From Acidobacteriota bacterium (lineage in GTDB: Bacteria > Acidobacteriota > Thermoanaerobaculia > Thermoanaerobaculales > Thermoanaerobaculaceae): 64,000 nucleotides of DNA. The DNA is taken from positions 21,385 to 85,384 of the forward strand of contig PKYI01000033.1 in the NCBI GenBank assembly GCA_003133645.1, given 5' to 3'. This document shows, in pieces, positions 2,946 through 46,909 of this stretch (the first letter of the stretch is position 1; every line of letters starts with the position of its first letter). The notes under the pieces are model-generated. The model was not told the DNA's origin and did not search any database. It saw only the letters and a program-made list of their open reading frames with translations. Position numbers and translations under genes: made by a program.

Positions 2946-5042
2946 TTACTTCGACTTCTCGAACACCTGGTTGCGCAGGAACTTCTCCGGGTCCCACGGC
3001 GCCGGTCCGCCGCCCAGGTAGCGGTGGAACCAGTCGAGGTGGAGGTCGTAGTAGAACGCCATCTCGTACCACGACGGCCAATGCCCGGACTTGGAGAGCA
3101 CGACGAGGCGCGACGGCACCTTCATCTCCTGCAAGTCGGTGAAGAACTCCAGCGACTGGATGTACGGGACGCGGTAGTCGCGCTCGCCGGTGACCACCAG
3201 GCACGGCGTCTTGAAGCTCGGCACGGACTCCGACGGCGACCACGTGCGGTACTCCGGGCTCGTCCACGGCTCGCCGCCGAGGTCGTGTTCGGGGAACCAC
3301 AACTCCTCGGTGGCCGAGTGCATGGCGCGCAGGTCGTACACGCCCATCATCGCGGCGATCGCCTTGAACCGGTCGGTATGCCCCTCGAGCCACATCATCA
3401 TGGTGCCGCCGTACGACCACCCCATCGCGCCGATGCGCGAGGCGTCCACGTAGGGCAGCTTCGCCAGCGCGTCGGCCACGGCCATGACGTCCTCGTAGAC
3501 CTTCCCGCCCCAGTCGCGCGTGATCCCGTCGGTGAACGCCTGGCCGTAGCCGGTGGAGCCGGTCGGGTTGGGGAACGCCACGACGTAGCCGGCGCCCGGG
3601 TAGACCTGCCAGTCGCCGCGGTAGGCGTCGGCCCACTGTGACTGCGGCCCGCCGTGGACGTTGAGGATGAGCGGGTACTTCTTGGCCGGGTCGAACCCGT
3701 GCGGCTTGACGATGAACACCTGGATGCGGCGGCCGGCGGGCCCGTCCACCCAGATCGCCTCGGCGGGCCGGACGTCCACCTCGGCGAGGAGCGCGTCGTT
3801 CTGGTGTGTGAGCTTGACCCGCTGCGCTCCGTCCAGGGCGCTGCGGTAGATCTCGGCGGGCTCCCCGACCGAGCGGCGGGCGTAGGCGACGCCGCCGGGG
3901 AGAAACTGCCACGCATCGATGGTGGCGTCGGCGAGCAGCGGGCGGACCGCGCCGGAGGCGACGTCGAGCTCGAACAGCGGCGTGCGCCCCTCGACCTCGG
4001 CCTGGAAGACGATGCCCTTCCCGTCGGGGAGCCAGTGGAAGTCGTCGATCCAGTTGCGGAACGCCTCGGTGAGGACGCGGTGCGTCTTCGTCGCGCGGTC
4101 GTACACCGCGAGCCGGAACAGGTCCGACTCGTAGCCGGGGACGTGCTGCGTGCGGTAGGCGATGAGGCGGCCGTCCGGGGAGTACGCTGGGGAGCCGTCC
4201 CACGCCGGGTTCGCCGCGGTGATGTCGGTCGCGGACCCCGGTTTGCCGGCCTCGTCGATCGGCACGGTCCAGAGGTCGGCGTTGGTGGAGCGGGCGGGGA
4301 CGGCGTCGTGGTTGGAGACGACCACGAGCTCGCGGGAGTCGGGCGCGAACGCGACGCCGGACTCGCCGCCGAGGCTGAACGTCGGCGCGTCGAAGGCGCC
4401 CGGCGTCAGGTCGGTGATCGCTCCGTCCGCGACCTTCACCAGCAGCACGTGGCTGTAGGTGCCGTCCCGCCACGACGTCCAGTGGCGGTAGAGGAGCGAG
4501 TCCGCCATGTGGGCGTGCAGCGGGCCGTCGCTCCACGCCTTGGAGATCTTCTCGTTGCACGCCGCGTCGGCGCCGCACTCCGGGTAGACCTCGGAGGCGA
4601 CCGCAATGAAGCGCCCGTCGGGGGACCACACCGGGTCGGACACGCCCATCGGGAACGTCGTGAGCTGGCGCGCGTCACCGCCGTCGAGCGGCAGGAGGAA
4701 GAGTTGGGTCTCGTCCCCACTCCGGTCGGAGAGGAACGCGATGCCGGCGCCGTCCGGGGACCAGCGCGGCGAGACGTCCTTGTGCTTCCCCTGGGTGAGC
4801 GGGCGGTCGCCACTGCCGTCGGCCGCCATGATGCGCAGCTCCGACCACTGCTTCGCCGCGGCGAGGTCGGTGTGGCCCGCCACGTAGACGATGCGGCGGC
4901 CGTCGGGGCTGACCTGCGGGTCGGAGACTCCGACCACGCGGTAGTGATCCGCGATCGTGAACGCCTTCTTTTCGGCCCGCGCGACGGTGCTCGAGACGAG
5001 AAGCACCAGAACCGTGACCAGGACGAGCTTTCCGTGTCTCAT
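2946..5042 (-). CDS. Secreted S9-family prolyl oligopeptidase-like peptidase
   Basis: A serine peptidase of about 698 residues (dipeptidyl-peptidase/acylaminoacyl-peptidase type). A signal peptide 'LVLVTVLVLLVSSTVARA' is followed by a TolB/WD-like beta-propeller with repeated 'SPDGR' blades, then an alpha/beta-hydrolase domain. The catalytic triad is visible as 'GWSYGG' (Ser), 'GERDYRVPY' (Asp) and 'SGHWPSW' (His). The propeller restricts access, so oligopeptides are the expected substrate, in the periplasm or outside the cell. The track start at 5069 is rejected in favour of the ATG at 5042, which is preceded by GGGGAGGAACG and begins the signal peptide. It converges on the upstream gene with a 15-bp gap. 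Confidence 0.93.
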   Translation of the reverse strand: MRHGKLVLVTVLVLLVSSTVARAEKKAFTIADHYRVVGVSDPQVSPDGRRIVYVAGHTDLAAAKQWSELRIMAADGSGDRPLTQGKHKDVSPRWSPDGAGIAFLSDRSGDETQLFLLPLDGGDARQLTTFPMGVSDPVWSPDGRFIAVASEVYPECGADAACNEKISKAWSDGPLHAHMADSLLYRHWTSWRDGTYSHVLLVKVADGAITDLTPGAFDAPTFSLGGESGVAFAPDSRELVVVSNHDAVPARSTNADLWTVPIDEAGKPGSATDITAANPAWDGSPAYSPDGRLIAYRTQHVPGYESDLFRLAVYDRATKTHRVLTEAFRNWIDDFHWLPDGKGIVFQAEVEGRTPLFELDVASGAVRPLLADATIDAWQFLPGGVAYARRSVGEPAEIYRSALDGAQRVKLTHQNDALLAEVDVRPAEAIWVDGPAGRRIQVFIVKPHGFDPAKKYPLILNVHGGPQSQWADAYRGDWQVYPGAGYVVAFPNPTGSTGYGQAFTDGITRDWGGKVYEDVMAVADALAKLPYVDASRIGAMGWSYGGTMMMWLEGHTDRFKAIAAMMGVYDLRAMHSATEELWFPEHDLGGEPWTSPEYRTWSPSESVPSFKTPCLVVTGERDYRVPYIQSLEFFTDLQEMKVPSRLVVLSKSGHWPSWYEMAFYYDLHLDWFHRYLGGGPAPWDPEKFLRNQVFEKSK

Positions 5043-5228
5043 CGTTCCTCCCCGGGGGGCGGCCGGCATCCCGCCGGAGCAGGCGCCGCCGGCCGCACGC
5101 AGCCGGAATGCTAATCCACCTGCCGTCGCCCATGCGACCCGCCACCGTGCGACCTCGCTCCTGGATGCACGGTCCCGAATCGGCTATTCTTGCAGCATCG
5201 TCAGAATCGGATCGGAAGGGAGGCAACG

Positions 5229-5666
5229 ATGCTCAAAGAGTTCAAAGAGTTCGCCATGCGCGGCAACGTCATGGACATGGCCATCGGCATCGTCATCGGC
5301 GTCGCGTTCGGGCGTATCGTGACCTCGCTGGTCAACGACGTGCTGATGCCGCCGATCGGCCTGATCCTCGGCAAGGTCGACTTCTCGAGCCTGTTCATCA
5401 ACCTCTCGGGGACCTCGTACCCCACCCTTGCGGAGGCCAAGAAAGCCGGCGCGGCGGTGATGGCGTATGGCGCCTTCTTGAACACCATCCTGGACTTCGT
5501 CATCGTGGCGTTCGTCATCTTCTTGCTCATCAAGCAGCTCAACCGCCTGAAGAAGCCCGCTCCGGCGGCGCCGCCGGCAACCAAGGACTGCCCTTTCTGC
5601 CTGTCGGCGATTCCGATCAAGGCGACGCGCTGCCCCCACTGCACCTCGCAGCTCTCGGCCAGTTGA
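5229..5666 (+). CDS. mscL: Large-conductance mechanosensitive channel MscL with C-terminal zinc ribbon
   Basis: A 145-residue inner-membrane channel that opens under membrane tension to release solutes during hypo-osmotic shock. The N-terminal amphipathic helix '[18 protein letters not shown]', TM1 '[16 protein letters not shown]' and TM2 around '[13 protein letters not shown]' are typical. After TM2 comes a Pro/Ala linker and a four-cysteine zinc ribbon, 'CPFC' then 'CPHC', in place of the usual short C-terminal helix bundle. The start at 5229 has GGGAGGCAACG immediately upstream; the track's 5190 start is rejected. A TATTCT box at 5185-5190 could be its -10. Confidence 0.95.
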
Positions 5667-5698
5667 AAAATGAAACAATGAGGTACCAGGTACCTAAA

Positions 5699-6811
5699 AT
5701 GCGACACAACGTCCCGCTCGGCAGGATCATCGGAATACCGATTGGCCTCGACCTCTCCTGGTTCCTCATTTTCGGCCTGCTCACCTGGTCGCTGGCGGCC
5801 AGCTACTACCCGGCGGAGTTCCACGGCTGGACGCCCGCGCTGTACTGGATCACGGGCGCGGCGACCGCGCTCCTGCTGTTCGCCAGCGTGCTCTTGCACG
5901 AGCTTGGGCACTCGGTCGTGGCGCTGTGCTACAAGATTCCGGTCCGCAGCATCAACCTGTACATCTTCGGAGGCGTGGCCGAGATCGGCGCCGAACCGCC
6001 ATCCGCGAAGGCCGAGCTGGCCATCGCGATCGCCGGGCCGATCGTGAGCCTTGCCCTCGCGGCTCTCTTCACGCTGGCAAAGCCCTTCGCGGCCGCCAGC
6101 GCCCCTCTGTTTGGCATAGCCAAGTACCTTGCCTACATGAACACGGCTCTGTTCGTGTTCAACCTCATCCCGGGCTACCCGCTCGACGGCGGGCGCGTCT
6201 TCCGCGCCGCCGTGTGGGGGTACACCCACAACCTCCGCCGCGCCACGTTGATCGCCGCCAGCGTCGGCCGCTTCTTCGGGTTCGTCTTCATCTTCGTCGG
6301 CGTCTGGCAGGTGTTCGCCGGCAACCTGGGCGGCCTCTGGATGGCGTTCATCGGCTGGTTCCTCGACAACGCGGCGTCCGCCCAGGTCCACCAGTTGGCG
6401 TTCCAGGGCGTGCTCGCCGGCCACACCGTGTCGCAGGCCATGGGCGGGCGCTGCACCGCCGTGCCTGCGGAGCTGACGCTGCAACAACTGGTCGACGAGC
6501 ACATCCTGGCCGGCGGCCAGCGTTGCTTCCTCGTCAACCGCGGCGAGGAGACCGTCGGCCTCATGACCCTGCACCGGATCAGGGACGTGCCCCGCGCCCA
6601 GTGGCCGACCACGCGCACCGCCCAGGTCATGCTCCCGATGGAGAACCTCAAGCGCATCGGTCCCGACACCGACCTATGGGGCGCGCTGCAGGAGATGGAC
6701 CGCGACGGCGTCAACCAGCTCCCGGTGATGACCGACGCCCGCGTCGTCGGCATGCTCACCCGCGAGGACGTCGTCACCTTCCTCCGCACACTGCGCGAGC
6801 TCGGCGGCTGA
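5699..6811 (+). CDS. Site-2-type intramembrane metalloprotease (M50) with CBS domain pair
   Basis: About 370 residues. The membrane part carries the zinc motif 'HELGHS' and the distal 'YPLDGGRVF' (third ligand Asp), the hallmarks of M50 peptidases. Several hydrophobic helices surround them, and two CBS-like segments at the C-terminus end with 'GMLTREDVVTFL'. Members of this subgroup cleave membrane-embedded substrates, and CBS domains often sense adenine nucleotides; the substrate here is unknown. The start is uncertain: ATG 5699 (MRHNVPLGR...) fits the family N-terminus, and ATG 5678 is in frame upstream. Between them lies a near-perfect inverted repeat, AGGTACC-A-GGTACCT (5681-5695), which could be an operator or chance. 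It follows mscL by about 30 bp in the same direction. Confidence 0.9.
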   Translation: MRHNVPLGRIIGIPIGLDLSWFLIFGLLTWSLAASYYPAEFHGWTPALYWITGAATALLLFASVLLHELGHSVVALCYKIPVRSINLYIFGGVAEIGAEPPSAKAELAIAIAGPIVSLALAALFTLAKPFAAASAPLFGIAKYLAYMNTALFVFNLIPGYPLDGGRVFRAAVWGYTHNLRRATLIAASVGRFFGFVFIFVGVWQVFAGNLGGLWMAFIGWFLDNAASAQVHQLAFQGVLAGHTVSQAMGGRCTAVPAELTLQQLVDEHILAGGQRCFLVNRGEETVGLMTLHRIRDVPRAQWPTTRTAQVMLPMENLKRIGPDTDLWGALQEMDRDGVNQLPVMTDARVVGMLTREDVVTFLRTLRELGG

Positions 6812-35531: not shown

Positions 35532-35708
35532 ATGAGTCCACTTCACAGCACCTGCCCGATCTGCGATGCAAATGTCGAGTTGCCGCCGGACGTGAGCGCA
35601 TCGGAGGTGGTGCGCTGCGGCGACTGCGGCGCCGACCTCGAGGTGCAAGCGCTCGACCCGCCGGTGCTGGTCGAGGCCCCGGCCGAGGAAGAGGACTGGG
35701 GGCAGTGA
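35532..35708 (+). CDS. lysW: LysW amino-group carrier protein with C-terminal Gln
   Basis: A 58-residue acidic carrier, absent from the track. The zinc site is Cys8, Cys11 ('CPIC') and Cys29, Cys32 ('CGDC'). The acidic tail 'EAPAEEEDWGQ' matches the conserved LysW end. In characterised LysW proteins the last residue is Glu (EDWGE), whose gamma-carboxyl is joined to the amino group of alpha-aminoadipate by LysX. Here the codon is CAG, so the chain ends in Gln. That side chain is an amide and should not be a LysX substrate without deamidation. The RBS is GGAGGACG. The stop overlaps the next start (TGATG). It begins a seven-gene operon. Confidence 0.93.
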   Translation: MSPLHSTCPICDANVELPPDVSASEVVRCGDCGADLEVQALDPPVLVEAPAEEEDWGQ

Positions 35709-36886
35709 TGCTGCGCATCCTCGACAGCACCCTGCGCGAGGGCGAGCAGACGCCCGGCGTCTGCTTCGACCTCCACGTCAAGCTGGCGATCGCCGAGTTG
35801 CTCGCCGACATCGGCGTGGACGTCATCGAAGCCGGCCACCCGGCGGTAACCGAGGGGGTCCACCGGGCGGTGCGGGCGATCGCCGGGCGGGGGCTGCGGC
35901 CGCTCGTCGGTGCGCACGCCCGTTCCCTGGAAAGCGACGTCGAGATGGCGCTCGGGTGCGGCGTGGGCTTCCTCGGCATCTTCTACTGCGTCTCGGAGAC
36001 GCGCTTGGCCGATCGCGCGACCGACCTCGACGACGCGGTCGCCCGGATCGCCGCGGTGATCCGCCTCGCCAAGACGCGAAAACCGGACCTCATCGTCCGC
36101 TACACGCCCGAGGACGCGGTCCGCTCGCCGTTCGGAAACGTCGTGACCGCGGCCGCGGCCGCCTGCGCGGCCGGCGCCGATGTGATCAGCATCGCCGACA
36201 CCACCGGCTACATGATCCCCGGCACCGACCGCAGCATGTTCGACTACGTCACGCGCCTCAGGGCCGAGCTGGCGCTGCGCGGGTTCGAGCCGCAGATCGC
36301 GGTCCACTGCCACAACGACCGCGGCCTCGCCCTCGCCAACGCTCTCGACGCCATGCGAGCCGGTGCAAGCATCATCGACGCATCGGTCCTCGGCCTCGGC
36401 GAACGAGCCGGGATCGTGGACCTCGGCACGCTGCTCGCCGTGCTCGCGTCCGACTTCGGCCTGGCCGGTCGCTGGGACCTGACGCTGCTGCCGGAGCTGT
36501 ACGAGCTCGTCAGCCGGTACGCCCGGGTGAGCGTCCCCATCAACCTGCCGGTGACGGGCAGGAACGCGTTCACCCATTGCGCCGGCGTCCACACCCAGGC
36601 GGCGGTCCGTAACCCGCTGCACTACCAGAGCCTCGACCCGGCGATCGTGGGCCGCAAGCCGGAGATCGCGCTCGACCACATGGCGGGGATGGCGTCGCTC
36701 CGGTTCTCGCTCGAGCGGATCGGCTACGGCGACCTCCCGGACGAGCTTGCCCGCCCGCTCCTCACGCGCGTCAAGGAGGTCGGTGAGAGCGGCCGCACGG
36801 TGGACCTCGACGAGCTGCGGCTGATCGTGCACGCCGTGCTGGAGCAAGAGACCCTTCTGGAGCGTGTCGAGAGGCTCGCGTCATGA
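35708..36886 (+). CDS. Homocitrate synthase (LeuA/HCS family)
   Basis: 392 residues. It is a DRE-TIM metallolyase with the '[13 protein letters not shown]' N-terminus and the metal motif '[19 protein letters not shown]'. It condenses 2-oxoglutarate with acetyl-CoA to homocitrate, the first step of the alpha-aminoadipate route to lysine. 2-isopropylmalate synthase is the alternative, but the sequence lacks the LeuA C-terminal regulatory domain, and the position in the LysW operon favours homocitrate. The ATG overlaps the lysW stop. Homoaconitase and homoisocitrate dehydrogenase genes are not in the window. The track's upstream start at 35489 runs through lysW in another frame. Confidence 0.88.
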
Positions 36887-37731
36887 GAGTCGGGTTCCTC
36901 CACTCGCTGATCCGCAAGGAGGAAAAGTTGCTCCTCGACGAGCTCGCGACCCGGTCGGACGTCGAGGTGGTGATGATCGACGATCGCGAGATCACCTTCA
37001 CGCTCGGCCAGGCCCGGCACGATCTCGACGTGGTGCTGGAGCGCTGCATCAACCACTCGCGCGCCCTCCATGCGCTGCGCCTGTTCGAGAGCCAGGGCGT
37101 CGCGTGCGTGAACACCTCGGCGGTGGCGGCGACATGCGGCGACAAGCTGCTCACCTCGATCGCGCTCGACGAGCACGGCGTGCCGCAGCCCGAGGTGCGC
37201 ATCGCGTTCACGCCGGAATCGGCGATCGGGGCGATCGAGGCGATGGGCTACCCGGTCGTGCTCAAGCCCGCGGTTGGCTCGTGGGGGAGGCTGCTCGCCA
37301 AGGTCAACGACCGCGACGCCGCCGAGGCGCTGCTCGAGCACAAGACCACGCTCGGCTCTTACCACCACTCGGTGTTCTACATCCAGAAGTACGTCGCCAA
37401 GCCCGGCCGCGACATCCGCGCCTTCGTGGTCGGCGACGAGTGCATCGCGGCGATCTACCGCAACTCCGAGCACTGGATCACCAACACCGCCCGGGGCGGA
37501 TCCGCGACACGGTGTCCGATCACGTCGGAACTGGCGGCGATCTCGCTTGCCGGCGCCAAGGCGGTCGGGGGCGGTGTGGTCGCACTCGACATCTTCGAGG
37601 CCGACGGCGGCCTTCTCGTCAACGAGGTGAACTACACGATGGAGTTCAAGAACTCGATCGCGCCGACGGGCGTCGACATCCCGGCCAGGATCGTCGACTT
37701 TGCGCTGGCGCGCGCCCGGGTGCCGGCGTGA
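36883..37731 (+). CDS. lysX: LysX, LysW:alpha-aminoadipate ligase (ATP-grasp)
   Basis: 282 residues of the RimK/LysX ATP-grasp family. Visible are '[20 protein letters not shown]', the nucleotide loop '[16 protein letters not shown]', and the metal-binding end '[20 protein letters not shown]'. It joins the amino group of alpha-aminoadipate to the gamma-carboxyl of LysW's C-terminal Glu using ATP. The dedicated homocitrate synthase argues for lysine and against the glutamate-specific ArgX role. Its ATG overlaps the preceding stop by 4 nt. Confidence 0.93.
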
Positions 37732-38774
37732 GCCCGGTCCCGGTCGCGATCGTCGGCGCCTCGGGGTACGCGGGCGGCGAGCTGCTCCGCCTGCTCCTCG
37801 CCCACCCCGGCGTCGAGGTGCAACAGGTCACCTCGGAGAGCCGCGCCGGCGAGCCTGTCGTCGTCGTGCACCCCAACTTGCGCAAGCGCACGTTGCTCAA
37901 GTTCTCCCGGATGGGAGACCTGCAGCCCTGCGACACGGCGTTCCTCTGCCTGCCGCACGGCCGCACGGTCGAGGTCATCGACGGGGTGCTGGCAAGGTCT
38001 GAGCGGACCATCGACCTCTCCGCCGACTTCCGCCTGCGCCGCGCCGAGGACTACCTGCGCTGGTACGGCTTTGTCCACCCGCGGCCCGACCTGCTCGGCG
38101 CGTTCGTCTACGGCATCCCCGAGCTGCACCGGGACGCAATGCGAGGCGCGCGCCTGGTCTCCAGCGCCGGCTGCAACGCGACCGCGGTGATCCTGGCGCT
38201 TGCCCCGCTGTTCAAGCACGGGGTGGCCGACACCCGCTGCACCGTGGTCGAGGCCAAGGTCGGGTCGAGCGAGGGCGGCGCCGGCGTCTCGCCCGCCTCG
38301 CACCACCCGGTGCGCGCCAACTGCGTGCGCTCGTACAAGCCCACCGGCCACCGCCACACCGCGGAGATGCTGCAGGAGTTGGGGCTTTCCGGCGACTCCC
38401 GCATCCATTTCTCGGCGACCGCGATCGACCTCGTGCGCGGGATCCTCGCCACCTGCCATGTGTTCCTCAACGACGGCGTCGACGAGAAGCAGATCTGGAA
38501 GCTCTACCGCCAGGAGTACGGCGACGAGCCGTTCGTCCGCATCGTCAAGGAACGCGACGGGGCGTTTCGCTACCCGGAACCGAAGCTGCTCGCCGGCACG
38601 AACTTCTGCGACATCGGATTCGAGCTGGACCGGGATGGCAACCGCTTGGTGGTGATGAGCGCACTCGACAACCTGGGCAAGGGCGCCGCGGGCCAGGCCG
38701 TGCAGGCGTTCAACCTCATGCACGGCCTCGACGAGACGGCGGGCCTCGGGTTTGTCGGCCTTCACCCGGTGTAA
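37728..38774 (+). CDS. lysY: LysY, [LysW]-aminoadipate 6-phosphate reductase (ArgC family)
   Basis: 348 residues. The Rossmann start '[19 protein letters not shown]' binds NADPH; the catalytic Cys is in '[14 protein letters not shown]', with a His in '[19 protein letters not shown]'. It reduces the LysW-bound aminoadipyl phosphate to the semialdehyde. The GTG at 37728 overlaps the lysX stop (GTGA). ArgC proper cannot be excluded on sequence alone, and dual use is known in this pathway family. Confidence 0.93.
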
Positions 38775-38777
38775 GCC

Positions 38778-39416
38778 ATGTGCCGCCTGCTCGCCGTCAA
38801 GGACCGTACGCCGTTCGCGATCGCGCCGCTGCTGCGAGCGTTCGCCGCGATGGCGCGCACCAGCCGCGAGTACCAGGGTGACGGGTGGGGTTGTGCCTGG
38901 CGCGACGGGATCGGCTGGAATGCCTACCACAGTCTCACGCCGGTCTGGGACGACGACGTCAGGTCCTTCGGCGAGACCGGCCTGCTCGTCGCCCACGCCC
39001 GCTCGGCGTTCCGCAACGAGGGGATCGCGCTCGAGAACAACATGCCGTTTGCCGCCGGCGGGCTCGTGTTCGCGTTCAACGGCGAGCTGCACGGCGTGCG
39101 GATCCGCGAGGACGGCCGCATCGGCGCCGAGAAGGTGTTCAACACGATCCGCCGACTGACCAACGGCGATCTCCGCGCCGGCCTGGAGCGGGCGGCGGCG
39201 GTGATTTGCGCCCGCAGCCGCTACGTCAGGGCGATGAACGTCGTGCTGAGCGACGGCGAGCGGATCCTCGCCCACTCGTCCTTCGCGGAGCGACCCGAGT
39301 ACTTCACCGTGCACGTGGCGGCCCGCGACGGGCGGGTCGCCGTGTGCTCCGAGCCGTTGCCCGGCGAGGACGGCTGGCGTCCCATGGACAACGGCGCCAC
39401 GGAGGTGTTCGCGTGA
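38778..39416 (+). CDS. Class-II glutamine-amidotransferase-like Ntn hydrolase inside the LysW operon
   Basis: 212 residues of the GATase_4/YafJ-EgtC type. Cys2 directly after the initiator Met ('MCRLLAVK') is the expected N-terminal nucleophile. Further class-II signatures are 'QGDGWGCAWRDG', 'VAHARSAFRN', 'NNMPFAAGGLVFAFNGEL' (oxyanion Asn-Gly kept; the usual HNG is FNG) and 'ICARSRYVRAMNVVLSDG'. There is no fused synthase domain, so it should act as a stand-alone amidohydrolase on a gamma-glutamyl/glutaminyl amide. It lies 3 bp after lysY and overlaps lysZ by 4 nt, so it is fully embedded in the operon. Candidate jobs are deamidating LysW's C-terminal Gln or hydrolysing lysine off LysW; both are inferred. 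Confidence 0.85.
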   Translation: MCRLLAVKDRTPFAIAPLLRAFAAMARTSREYQGDGWGCAWRDGIGWNAYHSLTPVWDDDVRSFGETGLLVAHARSAFRNEGIALENNMPFAAGGLVFAFNGELHGVRIREDGRIGAEKVFNTIRRLTNGDLRAGLERAAAVICARSRYVRAMNVVLSDGERILAHSSFAERPEYFTVHVAARDGRVAVCSEPLPGEDGWRPMDNGATEVFA

Positions 39417-40240
39417 TCATCGTCAAGATCGGTGGCGGCAAGACGATCAACGTCCCGGGCATCGCCCGGGACCTGGCCGGCATCGGCGTGAAGGCCGTCG
39501 TCGTGCACGGCGCCAACGCGGTCCGCGACGAACTGGCGGGCGCTCTCGGCCGGGCCCCGCGGGTGGTGACCTCGGCCTCCGGCGTCACGAGCGTGTTCTC
39601 CGACCAAACGGCAATCGACCTCCTGTTGATGGCCTACGCCGGCGCGCGCAACAAGCGGATCGTCGAGGCGATGCAACAGGCCGGGGTCAACGCGGTCGGC
39701 CTCTGCGGGCTCGACGGGCGGGTCGTGCAGGGCCAGCGCAACCGCGGCATCCGCGTCGAAGCCGGCGGCAGGACCAGCATCCTCCACGACCTCTCGGGCA
39801 AGCCGCAATCCGTCAACGTCGCGCTGTTGCGCGCGCTCCTGGCGCTCGGCCACACGCCCGTGCTCACGGTGCCGATCGCCGACGAGAACGGCGCGGCGAT
39901 CAACGCCGAGAACGACGACATCGTCGGCGTGCTGGCGCGCGACCTCGAAGCCGACACCGTGGTCCAACTCATCGAGGCGCCGGGGATGCTGCGCGACCCT
40001 GGGGATCCCGCGTCGGCGATCGCCTCGCTCGAGCTCGAGGAGCTGGCGCGTTGGGAGGCGTCCGCCGGCGGGAGGTTCAAGCGCAAGCTCATGGCGCTGC
40101 ACCGCCTTCTTGAAACCTGTGCGCCGCGCATCGTGATCGCGGACGGTCGCGCCGAGCATCCGCTTGCCGACGCGCTCGCCGGGATCGGGACCGAGGTCCT
40201 GGCATCCGCGTTCGCGCGGGCTGGGGGTGAGCGTGGCTAG
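39413..40240 (+). CDS. lysZ: LysZ, [LysW]-aminoadipate kinase (amino acid kinase family)
   Basis: 275 residues. 'IIVKIGGGKTINV' and 'KAVVVHGANAVRDELAGALG' are the ATP and substrate glycine loops of the NAGK/LysZ family; 'NAENDDIVGVLARDLEADTV' and the late 'GGRFKRKLMALHRLL' complete the site. It phosphorylates the delta-carboxyl of LysW-bound aminoadipate before LysY acts. The start is the GTG overlapping the preceding stop. It overlaps the aminotransferase by several codons. Confidence 0.93.
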   Translation: MIIVKIGGGKTINVPGIARDLAGIGVKAVVVHGANAVRDELAGALGRAPRVVTSASGVTSVFSDQTAIDLLLMAYAGARNKRIVEAMQQAGVNAVGLCGLDGRVVQGQRNRGIRVEAGGRTSILHDLSGKPQSVNVALLRALLALGHTPVLTVPIADENGAAINAENDDIVGVLARDLEADTVVQLIEAPGMLRDPGDPASAIASLELEELARWEASAGGRFKRKLMALHRLLETCAPRIVIADGRAEHPLADALAGIGTEVLASAFARAGGERG

Positions 40241-41414
40241 CCGACTCGGGTTCGACGCCGCGGCCACGCAGCGGGAGTTCATGGCGAACCTCTACGTGAG
40301 GCGGGGGCTGACGCTCACGCATGGGGAGGGTGTCGAGCTGGTCAGCGACACCGGCGAACGCTACCTCGACCTCATGAGCAACTATGGCGTCAACATCCTC
40401 GGCTACGGGCATCCCGGGCTGGAAGCAGCGCTCATCGCGCAACTGCGCGCCCTTCCGACCCTCCACTGCAGCTTCGTCAACGACGTGCGGGCATCGGCGT
40501 CGGCGGAGCTCGCGCGGCGGGTGAACCCGGCCGATCCCGGCCTCGTGTACTGGTCCAACTCCGGCGCCGAGGCGGTCGAGGCCGCGCTCAAGTTCGCCGC
40601 GATGGCGACCGGGAAGCGGCGCTTCGTCGCCTGTCGCGGCGCCTATCACGGCAAGACCCTCGGCGCGCTCTCCGCCACCTGGGGGGCGAAGTACCGCGAG
40701 CCGTTCGAGCCGTTGCTCTGGGAGTTCACCCACGTCGATTACGGGGACTCGGCGGCGCTCGAAGCCGCTCTCGACGAGGGCGCCGCCGCGTTCATCGTCG
40801 AGCCGATCCAGGGCGAGAGCGGCATCGTCGTGCCGCCGGAGGGCTACCTGCCTTCGGCGCGGCAGCTCTGCACCGACCGCGGGGCCTTGCTGATCACGGA
40901 CGAGGTGCAGAGCGGCGTCGGCCGCACCGGCCGCTTCCTCGCCGCGGAGCACGAGGGCGTCGCGGCCGACATCGTTTGCCTGGGCAAGGGCCTCGCGGGC
41001 GGCATCCCGGTCGGCGCGACGGTCGTGACACGGGCCGTCGGCGAGCGCCTCGAGCGCGGCGCCCACTCCTCCACGTTCGGCGGCAACCCCCTGGCGCTTG
41101 CGGGCGCCCGCTTCATCCTCGCGACGCTCGACGCCGCCATGCTGGAGCACGTCTCCCTCACCGGCGAGGCGTTCCTGGCCGCGCTGCGGTCGGTGACCCA
41201 CGACCTGGTGCCCGGGGCCCGCGGCCGCGGGCTGATGCTCGGCCTGGTGGTGAGCGACCGCCGCGACGACATCCTGCGCGGCTTGCAGAAGCACAAGGTG
41301 CTCGCCGTCCCCGCCGGCAGCCACGTCGTGCGCTTCCTGCCGCCGTACGCGATCGAGTCCAGCCACATCGACCGGGCGGTCGGCGCGCTGCGCGACACCT
41401 TGCGCGGCATGTAA
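40233..41414 (+). CDS. lysJ: LysJ, [LysW]-aminoadipate semialdehyde transaminase
   Basis: About 393 residues, a class-III PLP aminotransferase of the acetylornithine-aminotransferase group. Motifs include 'YWSNSGAEAVEAALKFA', 'RGAYHGKTLGALSAT', 'ITDEVQSGVGRTG' and the PLP lysine in 'CLGKGLAGGIPVGA'. It aminates the LysW-bound semialdehyde to LysW-lysine. The start is uncertain between GTG 40227 and GTG 40233; the second has GGGGG at suitable spacing. Both overlap lysZ. No LysK-type M20 deacetylase follows, so the enzyme that releases lysine is either elsewhere or is the Ntn hydrolase at 38778. Confidence 0.93.
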   Translation: MASRLGFDAAATQREFMANLYVRRGLTLTHGEGVELVSDTGERYLDLMSNYGVNILGYGHPGLEAALIAQLRALPTLHCSFVNDVRASASAELARRVNPADPGLVYWSNSGAEAVEAALKFAAMATGKRRFVACRGAYHGKTLGALSATWGAKYREPFEPLLWEFTHVDYGDSAALEAALDEGAAAFIVEPIQGESGIVVPPEGYLPSARQLCTDRGALLITDEVQSGVGRTGRFLAAEHEGVAADIVCLGKGLAGGIPVGATVVTRAVGERLERGAHSSTFGGNPLALAGARFILATLDAAMLEHVSLTGEAFLAALRSVTHDLVPGARGRGLMLGLVVSDRRDDILRGLQKHKVLAVPAGSHVVRFLPPYAIESSHIDRAVGALRDTLRGM

Positions 41415-41600
41415 CCAGCGTGCTTCAGTGGCGAACCGGTGACGAGGCCTCTCACCGTCCCCTGGGCGGCGCCTCCTCGCCTGGCGGCCCCTTCCATGCC
41501 CTCCAGATGTGCTGCCCACGCCCTGCGCACGGGTATCATCGAGATCGTGGGAACGGGAGTTCCAGTCCAAAGAGAGAATACGCACCTGGGAGGTGACCCG

Positions 41601-42605
41601 ATGAAGGCACGGTTGTGGTTCGTCTCGATCTTGGTCGTGGTGTGCCTGACGGCGGCTGCCGGGGGCGCGTGGGCGGCCGACCGCCCGGCGACCCCCGCGG
41701 TGTACCCGATCCAGGAGCAGTTCGTGGACGCCAACGGCGTCCTCATCTACACGCTTTCGATCGGGCGCGGCGCTCCCCTCGTGGTGCTCCACGGCGGGCC
41801 CGGCGCCTCGCACGACTACTTCCTCCCCTACCTGCTGCCGCTCGCTCGCCACAACCGCCTCGTGTTCATCGACGAGCGCGGCTCGGGCCGTTCGGAGAAG
41901 CTCGAGGACGCCTCGCGCTACACCGTCGAGGCGATGGTGGAGGACGTCGAGGCGGTGCGGGTCGCGCTCGGACTCGGCAAGATCAACCTCCTGGGGCACT
42001 CGTTCGGCGGCGTGCTGGCGCAGGCGTACGCCTTCGCCCACCAGGCGAGCCTCTCGCACCTCGTCCTCTGCAGCACGTTCCACAGCACCAAGGCGCTCAA
42101 CGAGGTGTTCGTCCGCATGAAGGCGGCGATGCCGGAGGAGCTGCGGAGCCGCATCGACCGGATGGAAGCCGCCGGGTTGTACGGGCACGGCAAGGACTAC
42201 GAGAAGAACCGGTACACCAACGAGTACATGATCGCCGCCTGGGGCGAGGGGTACTTCCCCTACCTCTACCAGAGGCGGCCCGACCCGAACTACGACCCGG
42301 TCGCCAATGGCAACACGGCGTGGGACCTCTACCGCGAGATGTGGGGCTCGCACGGGGAGTTCGTCGTGGACGGCAACCTCGCGTCGGCCGAGTACGCCGG
42401 CCGGCTGCCGGGGATCAAGGTGCCGACGCTGATCACAGTCGGCGACCACGACGAGAGCGACCCCTCGATCGCGCGGGAGATGCACGCCCTCATCCCGGGG
42501 TCGAAGCTCGTGGTCCTCCCGGCGAGCGGTCACATGACGTTCGTGGACCAGCCGGGCATGTTCCTCAAGGCGGTGGACGAGTTCCTCCACCCGCCCGCGA
42601 AGTGA
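41601..42605 (+). CDS. Exported proline-iminopeptidase-like hydrolase (S33 family)
   Basis: 334 residues. A signal peptide 'FVSILVVVCLTAAAGGAWA' leads into an alpha/beta hydrolase. Oxyanion motif 'VLHGGPGASHDYF', nucleophile elbow 'GHSFGG', Asp in 'VGDHDES' and His in 'ASGHMTF' complete the triad, and 'DERGSGRS' is typical of proline iminopeptidases. It would remove N-terminal proline or cleave related small substrates in the periplasm. The RBS is GGGAGGTGACCCG. It lies 186 bp after lysJ behind its own TATCAT box (41534-41539), so it is probably separate from the lysine operon. Confidence 0.9.
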   Translation: MKARLWFVSILVVVCLTAAAGGAWAADRPATPAVYPIQEQFVDANGVLIYTLSIGRGAPLVVLHGGPGASHDYFLPYLLPLARHNRLVFIDERGSGRSEKLEDASRYTVEAMVEDVEAVRVALGLGKINLLGHSFGGVLAQAYAFAHQASLSHLVLCSTFHSTKALNEVFVRMKAAMPEELRSRIDRMEAAGLYGHGKDYEKNRYTNEYMIAAWGEGYFPYLYQRRPDPNYDPVANGNTAWDLYREMWGSHGEFVVDGNLASAEYAGRLPGIKVPTLITVGDHDESDPSIAREMHALIPGSKLVVLPASGHMTFVDQPGMFLKAVDEFLHPPAK

Positions 42606-43004: not shown

Positions 43005-43052
43005 CGGCCGTCGTGTGGTAGGCCTTGACCAGCCGTGTGCGAGGGGGCGGCG

Positions 43053-44078
43053 ATGAGCGGGCAGTTCTCCGACCTGAAGAAGTACCTGCTCTCGGGGGTT
43101 TCCTACGCGATCCCGTTCGTCGCCTGTGGCGGCATCATGATCGCCGCCGCCATCGCCCTCGTTCCTATGACCCCGGCCGGTCCCGACTTCTCCCATTCGC
43201 CGTTTCTCAAGATGATCCTCGACATCGGCACGGCGGCGTTCTCGCTCCTCGTCCCGGTGTTGGCGGGGTACATCGCCTTCGGCATCGCCGACCGACCCGG
43301 GCTGGTACCGGGGTTCGTCGGCGGCACGGTGGCCAATCAGATCGGTGCTGGGTTTCTCGGCGGGCTGGTCGCCGGACTGCTCGCCGGCCTCGTCGTCTAC
43401 TGGATCAAGAAGGTCAAGGTCCCGCTCTACGTCCGGCCCGTCATGCCCATCCTCGTCATTCCGGTCCTCGCGTCGTTCGCCGTCGGGTTCGTCATGTACA
43501 AGGTCGTTGGATTCCCGATCAAGGACGCGATGAGCTACCTGTCCCGCTGGCTCGCGACCATCGGCACCGGCAACAGCGTCATCCTTGGCGTCGTCCTGGG
43601 AGCGATGATCGCCTTCGACATGGGCGGCCCCGTCAACAAGGTTGCGTTCTTCTTCGGCGCCGCCATGATCAAGGAGGGGAACTTCGCCGTCATGGGAGCG
43701 TGCGCCGCAGCGATCTGCATTCCGCCCATCGGTCTGGGTCTGGCGACGGTGCTCGGCCGCAAGCTCTGGAGCAGCGAAGAGCGCGACGCCGGCTACGCGG
43801 GGCTGGCCATGGGGATGATCGGCATCACCGAGGGCGCCATCCCGTTCGCCGCGGCCGACCCGGTGCGCGTCATCCCGACGATCATGGCCGGCTCGGCGAT
43901 CGGCTCGGTCATCGCGATGCTCGGAGGCGTGGGCGATCACGCCCCCCACGGCGGGCCGATCGTCCTCCCCGTCATTGACCATCGGCTGGCGTACGTGGCG
44001 GCGATCGCGGCGGGCTCGCTGTTCGTCGCTCTTGTCATCAACGGGCTGAGGAAGCTCGCGGCTAGCGGGAAGGCTTAG
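43053..44078 (+). CDS. PTS fructose-type EIIC permease
   Basis: 341 residues with about nine hydrophobic helices. Fructose-family IIC marks are 'LLSGVSYAIPFVACGGIMIA', 'YIAFGIADRPGLVPGFVGG', 'FDMGGPVNKVAFFFG' and 'GITEGAIPFAAADP'. It binds and moves the sugar while IIB phosphorylates it. In contrast to the common fused EIIBC, it is a separate protein. The RBS is GAGGGGGCGGCG. It is the first gene of a three-gene PTS operon, and the following mannosidase suggests mannose or fructose-like substrates (inference). Confidence 0.92.
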   Translation: MSGQFSDLKKYLLSGVSYAIPFVACGGIMIAAAIALVPMTPAGPDFSHSPFLKMILDIGTAAFSLLVPVLAGYIAFGIADRPGLVPGFVGGTVANQIGAGFLGGLVAGLLAGLVVYWIKKVKVPLYVRPVMPILVIPVLASFAVGFVMYKVVGFPIKDAMSYLSRWLATIGTGNSVILGVVLGAMIAFDMGGPVNKVAFFFGAAMIKEGNFAVMGACAAAICIPPIGLGLATVLGRKLWSSEERDAGYAGLAMGMIGITEGAIPFAAADPVRVIPTIMAGSAIGSVIAMLGGVGDHAPHGGPIVLPVIDHRLAYVAAIAAGSLFVALVINGLRKLAASGKA

Positions 44079-44087
44079 GAGAGCGCG

Positions 44088-44387
44088 ATGAACATCGTGG
44101 CCATCACCGCGTGCCCGACCGGTATCGCCCATACCTACATGGCGGCCGAGCGTCTCGAGAAGGCAGCCAGGCGGCTCGGGCACACCATCAAGGTGGAGAC
44201 GCAGGGCGCGATGGGGATCGAGAACGAACTCTCGGCGGACGACATCGCCCGCGCCGACGTCGTGATCCTGGCGGCCGGCATCGCGGTGCGCAACCGTGAT
44301 CGCTTCGCGGGGATGCGGATCGTCGAGGTCCCCGTGCAGGACGCCATCAAGGACCCCGAGCGGATCGTCGCCGGCCTCGGCACCTAG
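44088..44387 (+). CDS. PTS fructose-type EIIB
   Basis: 99 residues, a stand-alone IIB-fructose domain. The phosphorylated Cys is in 'ITACPTGIAHTYMAAERL'. It takes phosphate from IIA and gives it to the sugar bound by IIC. The start follows GGAGAGCGCG, 9 bp after the IIC stop, and its stop overlaps the next gene's GTG. Confidence 0.94.
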   Translation: MNIVAITACPTGIAHTYMAAERLEKAARRLGHTIKVETQGAMGIENELSADDIARADVVILAAGIAVRNRDRFAGMRIVEVPVQDAIKDPERIVAGLGT

Positions 44388-46909
44388 TGGCCAAAGAGCT
44401 TTCTTTCCGCTTTCCCCTTCCGCACGGCCTCCACGCCCGGCCCGCCAGCCTCCTGCGCGACGCGGCAGGCTCCTTCCAATCCGCGATCACTCTGATCAAC
44501 CGCCGCAACGACCTCAAGGCGAACGCCAAGAGCGCGCTGGCGCTGGTCGCCACCCTGACCAGGCAAGGGGACGAGTGCACGCTCCTGATCGCCGGCGGCG
44601 ACGAGCCGGCCGCCGCAGAGGCTCTGCGACGCTTCATCTCCGTGGAGTTGTCGCTGTGCGACGAAGCGCCGCCCGCTGTCCCGGCGGCTCAGGGGTCGTC
44701 GCCCCTGCCGCGCGCCCTGCGCGGCGAGGGCGTGCGTGTCCATCGCGGGCGTTCCGCGAGCGGCGGCATCGGCCGGGCGCCGGCCCTCCTCGCGGCACGG
44801 TGGAACGGCGGCCCGGACCTCGCCAATCGTGAAAAGGGCTCGCCCGAGGCGGAGTTCGCGAAGCTCGAACGGGCGTTCGTGGAGGTCGGCGCCGCGCTGC
44901 GGGCGCGGCGCGCCGCGGCCGCAAACAACACCGAGCGCGGGGTTCTCAACGCGCATCTCGCCATCCTCGAGGATGTCGAATTGAAGGCGAAGATCGCCGA
45001 TGAGATCGGCCGCAGCGGCGCCGGCGCCGGACAGGCCGTGGCCGCGGCCGTGGAACACTTTGCCGCGGTCCTGCGCGATTCGGGCAGCGCCGTGCTCGCC
45101 GAGCGCGTGCTCGACCTGCGCGACGTCGGGGAGCTCCTCGTTCGCGCCCTCGATCCCGGCACGGCCCGCGACGACCGCATCGCCCTCGAGCGCGACGCCG
45201 TCGTCGTCGCCCAGACCCTGAGCCCCGCGCACTTCCTCGCCCTCGACAAGGCCCGTCTCAAGGGGCTCGTCCTCGCGCGCGGCGGCGCCACCTCGCACAC
45301 CGTGATCCTCGCCCGTGCTCTCGGCGTCCCCTGCGTCACCGGCGTCGCCGAGGCTGTCCGCACCTTGAGGGACGGGCAGGAGATCGTCGTCGACGGCGAG
45401 CGGGGCCTGCTGGTCGCCGATCCCTCGCCCGCGGTGTCGGAGTTCTACGACGCGGAGAACGCCGCGTTGCGGACGATCCGGGAGCGGGTCGAGCGCACGG
45501 CCGCCCGCGACGCCGCGACGTCCGACGGCCGGCGCATCGAGGTCGCCGCGAACGTCTCGTCGCTCGCCGAGGTGCAGGAGGCGCTCGTTGCGGGCGCCGA
45601 AGGCGTCGGCCTCTTCCGCACCGAGCTGCTGTTCATGGACCGCGCGGAAGCACCCTCCGAGGACGAGCAGGCCGAGGTCTTCGCCGCGGCGGCACGCCTG
45701 GCCGGCGCGCGCTCGGTGATCATCCGCACCCTCGATGTCGGCGGCGACAAGCCGATCCCATACCTGCACCTCCCCGAGGAACGCAACCCCTTCCTCGGCT
45801 TCCGCGCGATCCGCACCTACGCGGCGCACCCCGGGATCGTCGCAGCGCAGATCCGAGCCTGCCTGCGCGCGTCGGCGTGCGGCAACGTCAAGATCATGTT
45901 CCCGATGGTGAGCTCGCTCGATGACGTCCGTATGCTGCGCGGCCTCGTGGCGGCGGAGATGGAGAGGCTGGCCGCCGCAGGCGTCCCGTTCGACCGCGAC
46001 ATCGGGGTGGGCGTCATGGTCGAGGTCCCGTCGCTCGCGTTCGTCATGGACCAGGTCGCCCGCGAGGTGGACTTCTGCAGCATCGGCTCCAACGACCTGC
46101 TCCAGTACCTCCTCGCCGTCGACCGGGACAACCAACTGGTCGCTCACCTTTACACGCCGTTCGAACCGGCGTTCCTGCGCGCCCTCGCGGCGGTCTGCGA
46201 CGGGGCGCACGCCTGCGGGAGGTGGGTCGGCCTCTGCGGCGAGCTGGGCGGCGACCCGCTGGCTGTTCCGCTGCTGGTCGGGCTCGGCCTCGACGAGATC
46301 AGCGTGGGCTGTGCGCGCGTGTCGGCGGTGAAGTCGGCGATCGCCGGCTGCGCGATGCCCGAGTGCCGGCAGCTGCTGGAATCGGCGATGCGTCAGGAGA
46401 CCGCGGCCGACGTCGAGGCGCTGCTCCGCGCGTTCGCCGCGAAGAGAGCGGACCGCTCGCTTCTCGCCGAAGACCTCGTCCGCCTGCAATCGCGCAGCCG
46501 TACGAGGGACGAGGCGATCCGGGAGCTCGTCGGCCTACTGCGAACGGCGGGGCGGGTCGGCGACCCGGACCGCGTCGAGGACGCGATCTGGCAACGGGAG
46601 GAGACGTACTCCACCGCGGTCGGCTTCGGCGTCGCCATTCCCCACTGCACGTCGGAAGGCGTGCTGGCGACCTCGATCGCGGTCGCCTCCTACCCGGCCG
46701 GCGTGGAGTGGCAATCGCTCGACGGATCGCCGGTGACGATGGCGATCCTCATCGCCGTCAACGCGAACGATCCCGGCGAGACGCACCTCAAGACGATCGC
46801 CGCGCTCTCGCGCAAGCTGATGGACGACGAGTTCCGTGCATCGCTGCTGGCGGCGGCGAGCGCGGCCGAGGTGGTGGCGCTGCTGCGGAGCGCGGTGGAA
46901 GTGTCGTGA
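44387..46909 (+). CDS. Fused HPr-EI-EIIA(Fru) phosphoryl-transfer protein
   Basis: 840 residues with three PTS modules in one chain. HPr (residues ~1-95) has active His16 in 'PHGLHARPAS'. Enzyme I (~115-680) has 'GGATSHTVILARALGVPCVT' (active His), 'GVGLFRTELLFMDR' and 'SIGSNDLLQYLLAVDRDN'. EIIA of the fructose type (~695-840) has 'GFGVAIPHCTSEG' (active His). It can therefore carry phosphate from PEP to IIB alone. The order HPr-EI-IIA differs from the common IIA-HPr-EI or IIA-HPr proteins. The start is GTG overlapping the IIB stop (TAGTG). Confidence 0.93.
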   Translation: MAKELSFRFPLPHGLHARPASLLRDAAGSFQSAITLINRRNDLKANAKSALALVATLTRQGDECTLLIAGGDEPAAAEALRRFISVELSLCDEAPPAVPAAQGSSPLPRALRGEGVRVHRGRSASGGIGRAPALLAARWNGGPDLANREKGSPEAEFAKLERAFVEVGAALRARRAAAANNTERGVLNAHLAILEDVELKAKIADEIGRSGAGAGQAVAAAVEHFAAVLRDSGSAVLAERVLDLRDVGELLVRALDPGTARDDRIALERDAVVVAQTLSPAHFLALDKARLKGLVLARGGATSHTVILARALGVPCVTGVAEAVRTLRDGQEIVVDGERGLLVADPSPAVSEFYDAENAALRTIRERVERTAARDAATSDGRRIEVAANVSSLAEVQEALVAGAEGVGLFRTELLFMDRAEAPSEDEQAEVFAAAARLAGARSVIIRTLDVGGDKPIPYLHLPEERNPFLGFRAIRTYAAHPGIVAAQIRACLRASACGNVKIMFPMVSSLDDVRMLRGLVAAEMERLAAAGVPFDRDIGVGVMVEVPSLAFVMDQVAREVDFCSIGSNDLLQYLLAVDRDNQLVAHLYTPFEPAFLRALAAVCDGAHACGRWVGLCGELGGDPLAVPLLVGLGLDEISVGCARVSAVKSAIAGCAMPECRQLLESAMRQETAADVEALLRAFAAKRADRSLLAEDLVRLQSRSRTRDEAIRELVGLLRTAGRVGDPDRVEDAIWQREETYSTAVGFGVAIPHCTSEGVLATSIAVASYPAGVEWQSLDGSPVTMAILIAVNANDPGETHLKTIAALSRKLMDDEFRASLLAAASAAEVVALLRSAVEVS

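Follow-up and report, generated by a model that had tools for sequence, protein, structure and literature searches.

Release of lysine from its carrier protein LysW is the task of LysK, an M20 metallopeptidase (TIGR01902, NF003367) that hydrolyses the gamma-glutamyl amide linking the amino acid to its carrier. A bond of this kind is also the target of EgtC, the gamma-glutamyl amidohydrolase of the ergothioneine pathway (4zfj, 4zfk, and 4zfl; TIGR03442). In the class-II glutaminase domains of GlmS and PurF, glutamine is held at its alpha-amino group by the Asp of a [ST]-D-[ST]-E motif and at its alpha-carboxylate by the Arg of an HxR motif. Dop deamidates the C-terminal Gln of the Pup tag and also cleaves the gamma-linked conjugate.

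In the window (the whole stretch of 64,000 nucleotides analyzed here), a class-II Ntn hydrolase gene, hereafter NTN, is embedded in a LysW operon (Table 1). With a probability of roughly 85%, its product is the terminal enzyme of LysW-dependent lysine synthesis in this lineage and a non-homologous replacement of LysK. The reaction proposed for NTN and the kind of operon are those of LysK; nevertheless, both proteins are unrelated in sequence and fold, NTN being a Cys-dependent Ntn hydrolase and not a metallopeptidase, its gene lies between lysY and lysZ whereas lysK follows lysJ, and intact LysK and NTN never occur in one genome. EgtC is the top structural match and shares with NTN the catalytic Cys2 and the kind of bond; however, NTN reaches 50.5 bits against TIGR03442, below the cut-off of 218.65, its homologues are found in LysW operons and not in egt clusters, and its proposed substrate is a carrier protein. 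The GATase_4/YafJ-type, GlmS, and PurF glutaminase domains (PF13230 and relatives) have in common with NTN the fold, Cys2, the HxR arginine, and the N-G oxyanion pair, but NTN carries Gly for the Asp of [ST]-D-[ST]-E, has a shorter loop before it, and lacks a synthase domain. Finally, Dop would be a functional parallel, compared by logic only, as the folds are unrelated. Among open-access papers, none combining LysW and "glutamine amidotransferase" and no description of such an enzyme were found. With the proposed function, the carrier-protein lysine pathway would gain its missing final step in many uncultured bacteria, where automatic annotation would call it incomplete, and a role would be given to proteins that domain models name only class-II glutamine amidotransferases.

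The LysW operon of the window and its genome

The genes lysW–HCS–lysX–lysY–NTN–lysZ–lysJ form one tightly coupled operon on the + strand (35532–41414), in which neighbors overlap or lie at most 3 bases apart; NTN starts 3 bases past lysY, and its stop codon overlaps the GTG of lysZ. The initial annotation had described this order, with no M20-type LysK after lysJ, and both gene calls and profile scores bear it out. The marks of a LysW-mediated lysine operon are all present, namely the LysW Zn ribbon with its EDWG(E/Q) tail, a LysX with the GSWGR motif and the Asn-Thr motif of the alpha-aminoadipate type (PMC10433800), LysY, LysZ, and LysJ.

Table 1. Genes of the LysW operon and two NTN codons, in window coordinates.
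Feature	Position	Strand	Evidence or remark
lysW, amino-group carrier protein	35532..35708	+	TIGR01206 57.9 bits, cut-off 53.2; C-terminus EEDWGQ by translation, Gln replacing the usual Glu
Homocitrate synthase-like gene (HCS)	35708..36886	+	HMGL-like and HCS_D2 domains; ATG start overlaps lysW stop
lysX, LysW ligase	36883..37731	+	TIGR02144 343 bits, cut-off 275.6
lysY, LysW-aminoadipyl-phosphate reductase, ArgC-like	37728..38774	+	TIGR01850 388 bits
NTN, EgtC-like Cys2 Ntn hydrolase, proposed LysW-gamma-lysine hydrolase	38778..39416	+	PF13230 37.3 bits, cut-off 23
Codon of catalytic Cys2	38781..38783	+	Invariant in 81/81 homologues
Codon of Gly116, at the place of Asp in class-II amidotransferase [ST]-D-[ST]-E	39123..39125	+	Gly in 81/81
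lysZ, [LysW]-aminoadipate kinase	39413..40240	+	NF010659 226.4 bits, cut-off 223
lysJ, [LysW]-aminoadipate semialdehyde aminotransferase, ArgD-like	40233..41414	+	GTG start at 40233

The gene directly after lysJ (41595–42605) encodes an alpha/beta hydrolase that carries a signal peptide and is proline iminopeptidase-like by eye; it was set aside as a substitute for LysK on account of this signal peptide and because its homologues do not recur among the inspected operon genes. Further downstream (43035–46909) there are fructose-type PTS-like genes (EIIC, EIIB, and a fused HPr-EI-EIIA) and then a large gene for a glycosidase-like protein that by eye resembles an alpha-mannosidase.

An unambiguous lysK at another place in the genome would speak against a replacement. 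None was detected in the window's genome, a draft of 216 contigs and 3.69 Mb that is 89% complete: in a TIGR01902 search of all contigs the best M20 protein scored 87.2 bits against a cut-off of 163.1. The same holds for the genomes with a close NTN homologue, a 40-residue scrap described below being a partial exception. Five M20 proteins are encoded in the window's genome, all far under the TIGR01902 cut-off, and NCBIfam names them acetylornithine deacetylase/DapE-like, YgeY, glutamate carboxypeptidase-like, PepT-like, and M20 hydrolase; the gene of the first, the best-scoring of the five, adjoins argB- and argH-like ORFs. The "[LysW]-lysine hydrolase" model NF003367 gave no match over its cut-off either (best 104, cut-off 363). 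LysK is also absent from the genome of a same-genus relative (locus L006; 96% complete), whose NTN is 91% identical. As for the alternative route, lysA (TIGR01048) has no match in the window's genome or in this relative, so that the former shows no way to lysine other than through LysW.

Distribution of NTN and LysK

One scan of genome contigs in one-genome-per-species data yielded 55 NTN loci, some of them interrupted by contig ends, from Acidobacteria, Gemmatimonadota, Gammaproteobacteria, Phycisphaerae, Binatia, a deltaproteobacterium, KSB1, and Melioribacteraceae. Nearly all sit among LysW-operon genes in the order W-X-Y-NTN-Z-J, and no M20 gene was found near them within the fetched flanks, which reached up to 10 kb. 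In the KSB1 locus (L018, 9900–11800) NTN and lysJ are paired, with W, X, Y, and Z absent nearby, and three gammaproteobacterial clusters (L007, L008, and L011) are without adjoining lysZ and lysJ, the first two of them reading W-X-Y-NTN.

The complementary distribution of LysK and NTN across LysW operons is seen in two samples. Among 34 genomes picked for having NTN, none exceeded the TIGR01902 cut-off, vs. 4 of 14 named control genomes. The second sample comprised 53 genomes from three phyla, picked by LysW (TIGR01206) regardless of NTN: LysK scores over the cut-off in 16, NTN is present in 33 (one of them divergent), both in none, and neither in four. By phylum, the 25 Acidobacteriota have LysK in 15 cases, NTN in five, a divergent NTN in one, and neither in four; the 14 Gemmatimonadota have LysK once and NTN 13 times; and all 14 genomes from the phylum of the Melioribacteraceae genome G034 have NTN. 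Two layouts are observed in the fetched regions, W-X-Y-Z-J-K and W-(HCS)-X-Y-NTN-Z-J. As regards the four genomes with neither gene, G165 is of the LysK type, judging from a fragment of LysK (54% identity) where a contig ends, the operon of G108 is truncated by a short contig, and in G255 and G293 a LysW-like gene stands alone, LysX and LysY being absent. A profile search for divergent NTN proteins in 18 LysK-type or unresolved genomes found none.

Several single loci depart from these layouts. The LysW-like proteins of G255 and G293 (loci L158 and L159) end in DDWEE or EEDWTE and are perhaps carriers of another system. The divergent NTN (L160, G098:C70, approximately 4868–5701) shows 26% identity and the motif IGSQK, and it is encoded after lysJ, the usual place of lysK. 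In an NTN genome, G039, a 40-residue scrap of the LysK C-terminus with 55% identity is found (L162, C182, 3325–3510) with a transposase-like ORF nearby, and it may be what is left of the replaced gene.

A tree of LysX plus LysY from 85 operons parts all 69 NTN rows from all 16 LysK rows by a single branch (SH-aLRT 99). On this tree the complementary pattern cannot stand for many independent events, and genome counts are not independent trials; from these sequences, the replacement looks like one ancient event, after which spread was both vertical and horizontal. The operon of G343 (Gemmatimonadota) clusters with an acidobacterial LysK operon, which indicates that operons move between phyla. 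The argument draws its force from an entire clade in which the pathway is otherwise complete, LysK is missing, and NTN is present. In this large group of bacteria making carrier-tethered lysine, the usual release enzyme is absent, and its task very probably falls to an unrelated enzyme whose gene lies in mid-cluster.

Fold, active site, and proposed mechanism of NTN

The AlphaFold2 model of NTN, built from a 36-row alignment, has a pLDDT of 91. Its best PDB match by Foldseek is EgtC (4zfl, TM 0.84, approximately 20% identity), followed by other class-II amidotransferases such as GlmS and PurF, and a profile search of PDB sequences agrees with this ranking. The protein has the features of the class-II (Cys2) Ntn amidohydrolases, that is, Cys2, the HxR arginine, the N-G oxyanion pair, and a predicted alpha-beta-beta-alpha fold. 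Eight residues are invariant in 81 of 81 NTN homologues: Cys2, Arg3, His73, Arg75, Asn88, Asn101, Gly102, and Gly116. The last of these separates NTN from the glutaminases, since the aligned site is Asp in all the GlmS, PurF, and YafJ-type paralogues aligned from the same genome set and in 1te5 and 3mdn; the comparison rests on these proteins, as the EgtC alignments end short of the motif. The segment preceding this position is also shorter in NTN than in the paralogues. As judged from the model, NTN has the fold and the active site expected of an enzyme that hydrolyses gamma-glutamyl amides. The roles of Arg75 and of the Asp/Gly116 site are presumably those of the corresponding positions in the GlmS and PurF structures. 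The target Glu of LysW has a free alpha-carboxylate and an alpha-nitrogen engaged in a peptide bond, and it would be predicted that the Arg is kept and the Asp lost. NTN was also inspected for a positive net charge that might point to LysW binding, and nothing clear was seen.

Gene order, the absence of LysK, distribution, fold, and residues suggest LysW-gamma-lysine as the substrate and a reaction along the following lines. Removal of Met1 would expose Cys2 as the N-terminal residue, which would attack LysW at the gamma-carbonyl of its terminal Glu, bonded to the alpha-amino group of lysine. Lysine would then depart, and water would resolve the LysW-gamma-glutamyl thioester, leaving LysW free for the next round. 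During this cycle Arg75 would hold the free alpha-carboxylate of the terminal Glu, and Asn101 and Gly102 would hold the oxyanion. Gly116 and the shorter loop before it would take the place of the amine-holding Asp of the relatives, because the alpha-nitrogen of the LysW Glu sits in the Gly-Glu peptide bond. This proposal predicts a single-residue specificity switch (Gly116) within a large enzyme superfamily, which is directly testable. The same chemistry, acting on a C-terminal Gln, would convert LysW-Gln into LysW-Glu.

The LysW tail and alternative explanations

The LysW of the window ends in EDWGQ, with CAG as the Gln codon (tail at 35697–35705), and that of its nearest relative (L006) in EDWGE. 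A C-terminal Gln is found in 19 of 68 NTN operons, the other 49 having Glu, vs. 0 of 16 LysK operons (Fisher p = 0.017, relatedness ignored). Parsimony on the tree requires at least 11 changes between Glu and Gln, none of them on the LysK side, which accounts for 31% of the branch length; the chance of zero changes there would be approximately 0.016 if changes fell at random. LysX should need a gamma-carboxylate, so that a Gln tail must be deamidated before loading, and NTN, which would attack the same gamma-carbonyl, could do this and make a change from Glu to Gln harmless only beside NTN. Such a deamidation would explain the interchange of Glu and Gln in NTN operons only, and the pattern suggests that NTN acts on the LysW tail and can also deamidate a C-terminal Gln.

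Two readings give deamidation a place in the cell. That NTN solely converts the C-terminal Gln to Glu for LysX loading, another enzyme freeing the lysine, would suit both Ntn amidohydrolase chemistry and the confinement of Gln tails, the window's included, to NTN operons, but it is very improbable: of the 68 LysW proteins encoded with NTN, 49 have a terminal Glu from the outset, that of the relative with the 91% identical NTN among them, and the missing LysK would stay unexplained. The initial annotation had treated lysine release and Gln deamidation as different hypotheses that one enzyme could nonetheless satisfy, and the tail pattern links the two. The Glu-ending carriers rule out deamidation alone as the conserved function. 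NTN may well perform both deamidation and release. That in Gln-ending lineages the two jobs, maturation of LysW-Gln and lysine release, are of comparable weight has about an even chance, a reading that extends the replacement of LysK and overlaps with it in probability. Bond type and position are identical in both reactions, the Gln/Glu pattern tracks NTN, and Dop is known to do both on Pup; on the other hand, the deamidation is a putative one, and the statistics are modest (the Fisher test and the branch-length estimate alike). The possibility is raised that such carrier proteins are made in an inactive Gln form, in parallel to Pup.

Alternatively, the lysine might be freed by another hydrolase, an ArgE- or DapE-like M20 enzyme or an unrelated peptidase, with NTN in a side role such as clearing misloaded or stalled LysW conjugates. 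Most NTN genomes, that of the window included, do have several M20 proteins, one of which could act on LysW-lysine, and the M20 gene beside the argB- and argH-like ORFs is a case in point; this counts against the replacement of LysK by NTN. Yet none of the M20 genes recurs in all NTN genomes, and NTN is found in nearly every operon examined of this type and LysK in none, so that such a hydrolase is unlikely. In two single-contig NTN genomes, G660 and G044, the best M20 proteins reach just 31 and 39 bits against TIGR01902, and lysA has no match; these two apparently make their own lysine through the LysW route, which then requires some terminal step. A glutaminase subunit supplying ammonia to a step of the pathway is scarcely credible: the class-II glutamine amidotransferase fold would fit, but no pathway step is known to use ammonia, LysJ being an aminotransferase, and the Asp present in every paralogue examined is Gly in all NTN homologues. 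Two further points weigh against the replacement reading, namely that the single-branch split may reduce the complementary pattern to one event, and that many NTN genomes of Gemmatimonadota, Gammaproteobacteria, and Binatia have lysA and an operon without HCS (e.g., G003, G009, and G016 from the first two groups). Replacement of LysK by NTN, as the initial annotation had proposed, is nonetheless supported by the absence of LysK, the complementary distribution, the EgtC-like fold, and the fitting substitution at Gly116. A wider reading is more tentative and has slightly less than an even chance: a Cys2 Ntn subfamily marked by the Asp-to-Gly change would have replaced LysK once, spread with the LysW operon over some eight phyla, and, like Dop on Pup, both matured Gln-ending carriers and released the amino acid, which would let the terminal Glu drift to Gln.

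The product of the operons without HCS is a related matter. Such genes have been interpreted as an ornithine route in Gemmatimonadota (PMC11651109), in which case NTN would release ornithine there. Ornithine as the product of the other NTN-type operons is weakened by the Asn-Thr aminoadipate motif carried by the LysX proteins with an intact motif region, and it is a possible product in the lysA-bearing genomes. Finally, in Caldithrix abyssi LysWXZYJ and Hcs reportedly lie in one locus (Cabys_3146-3153), with other genes of the pathway scattered (PMC5317091), which makes this bacterium a possible cultured test case.
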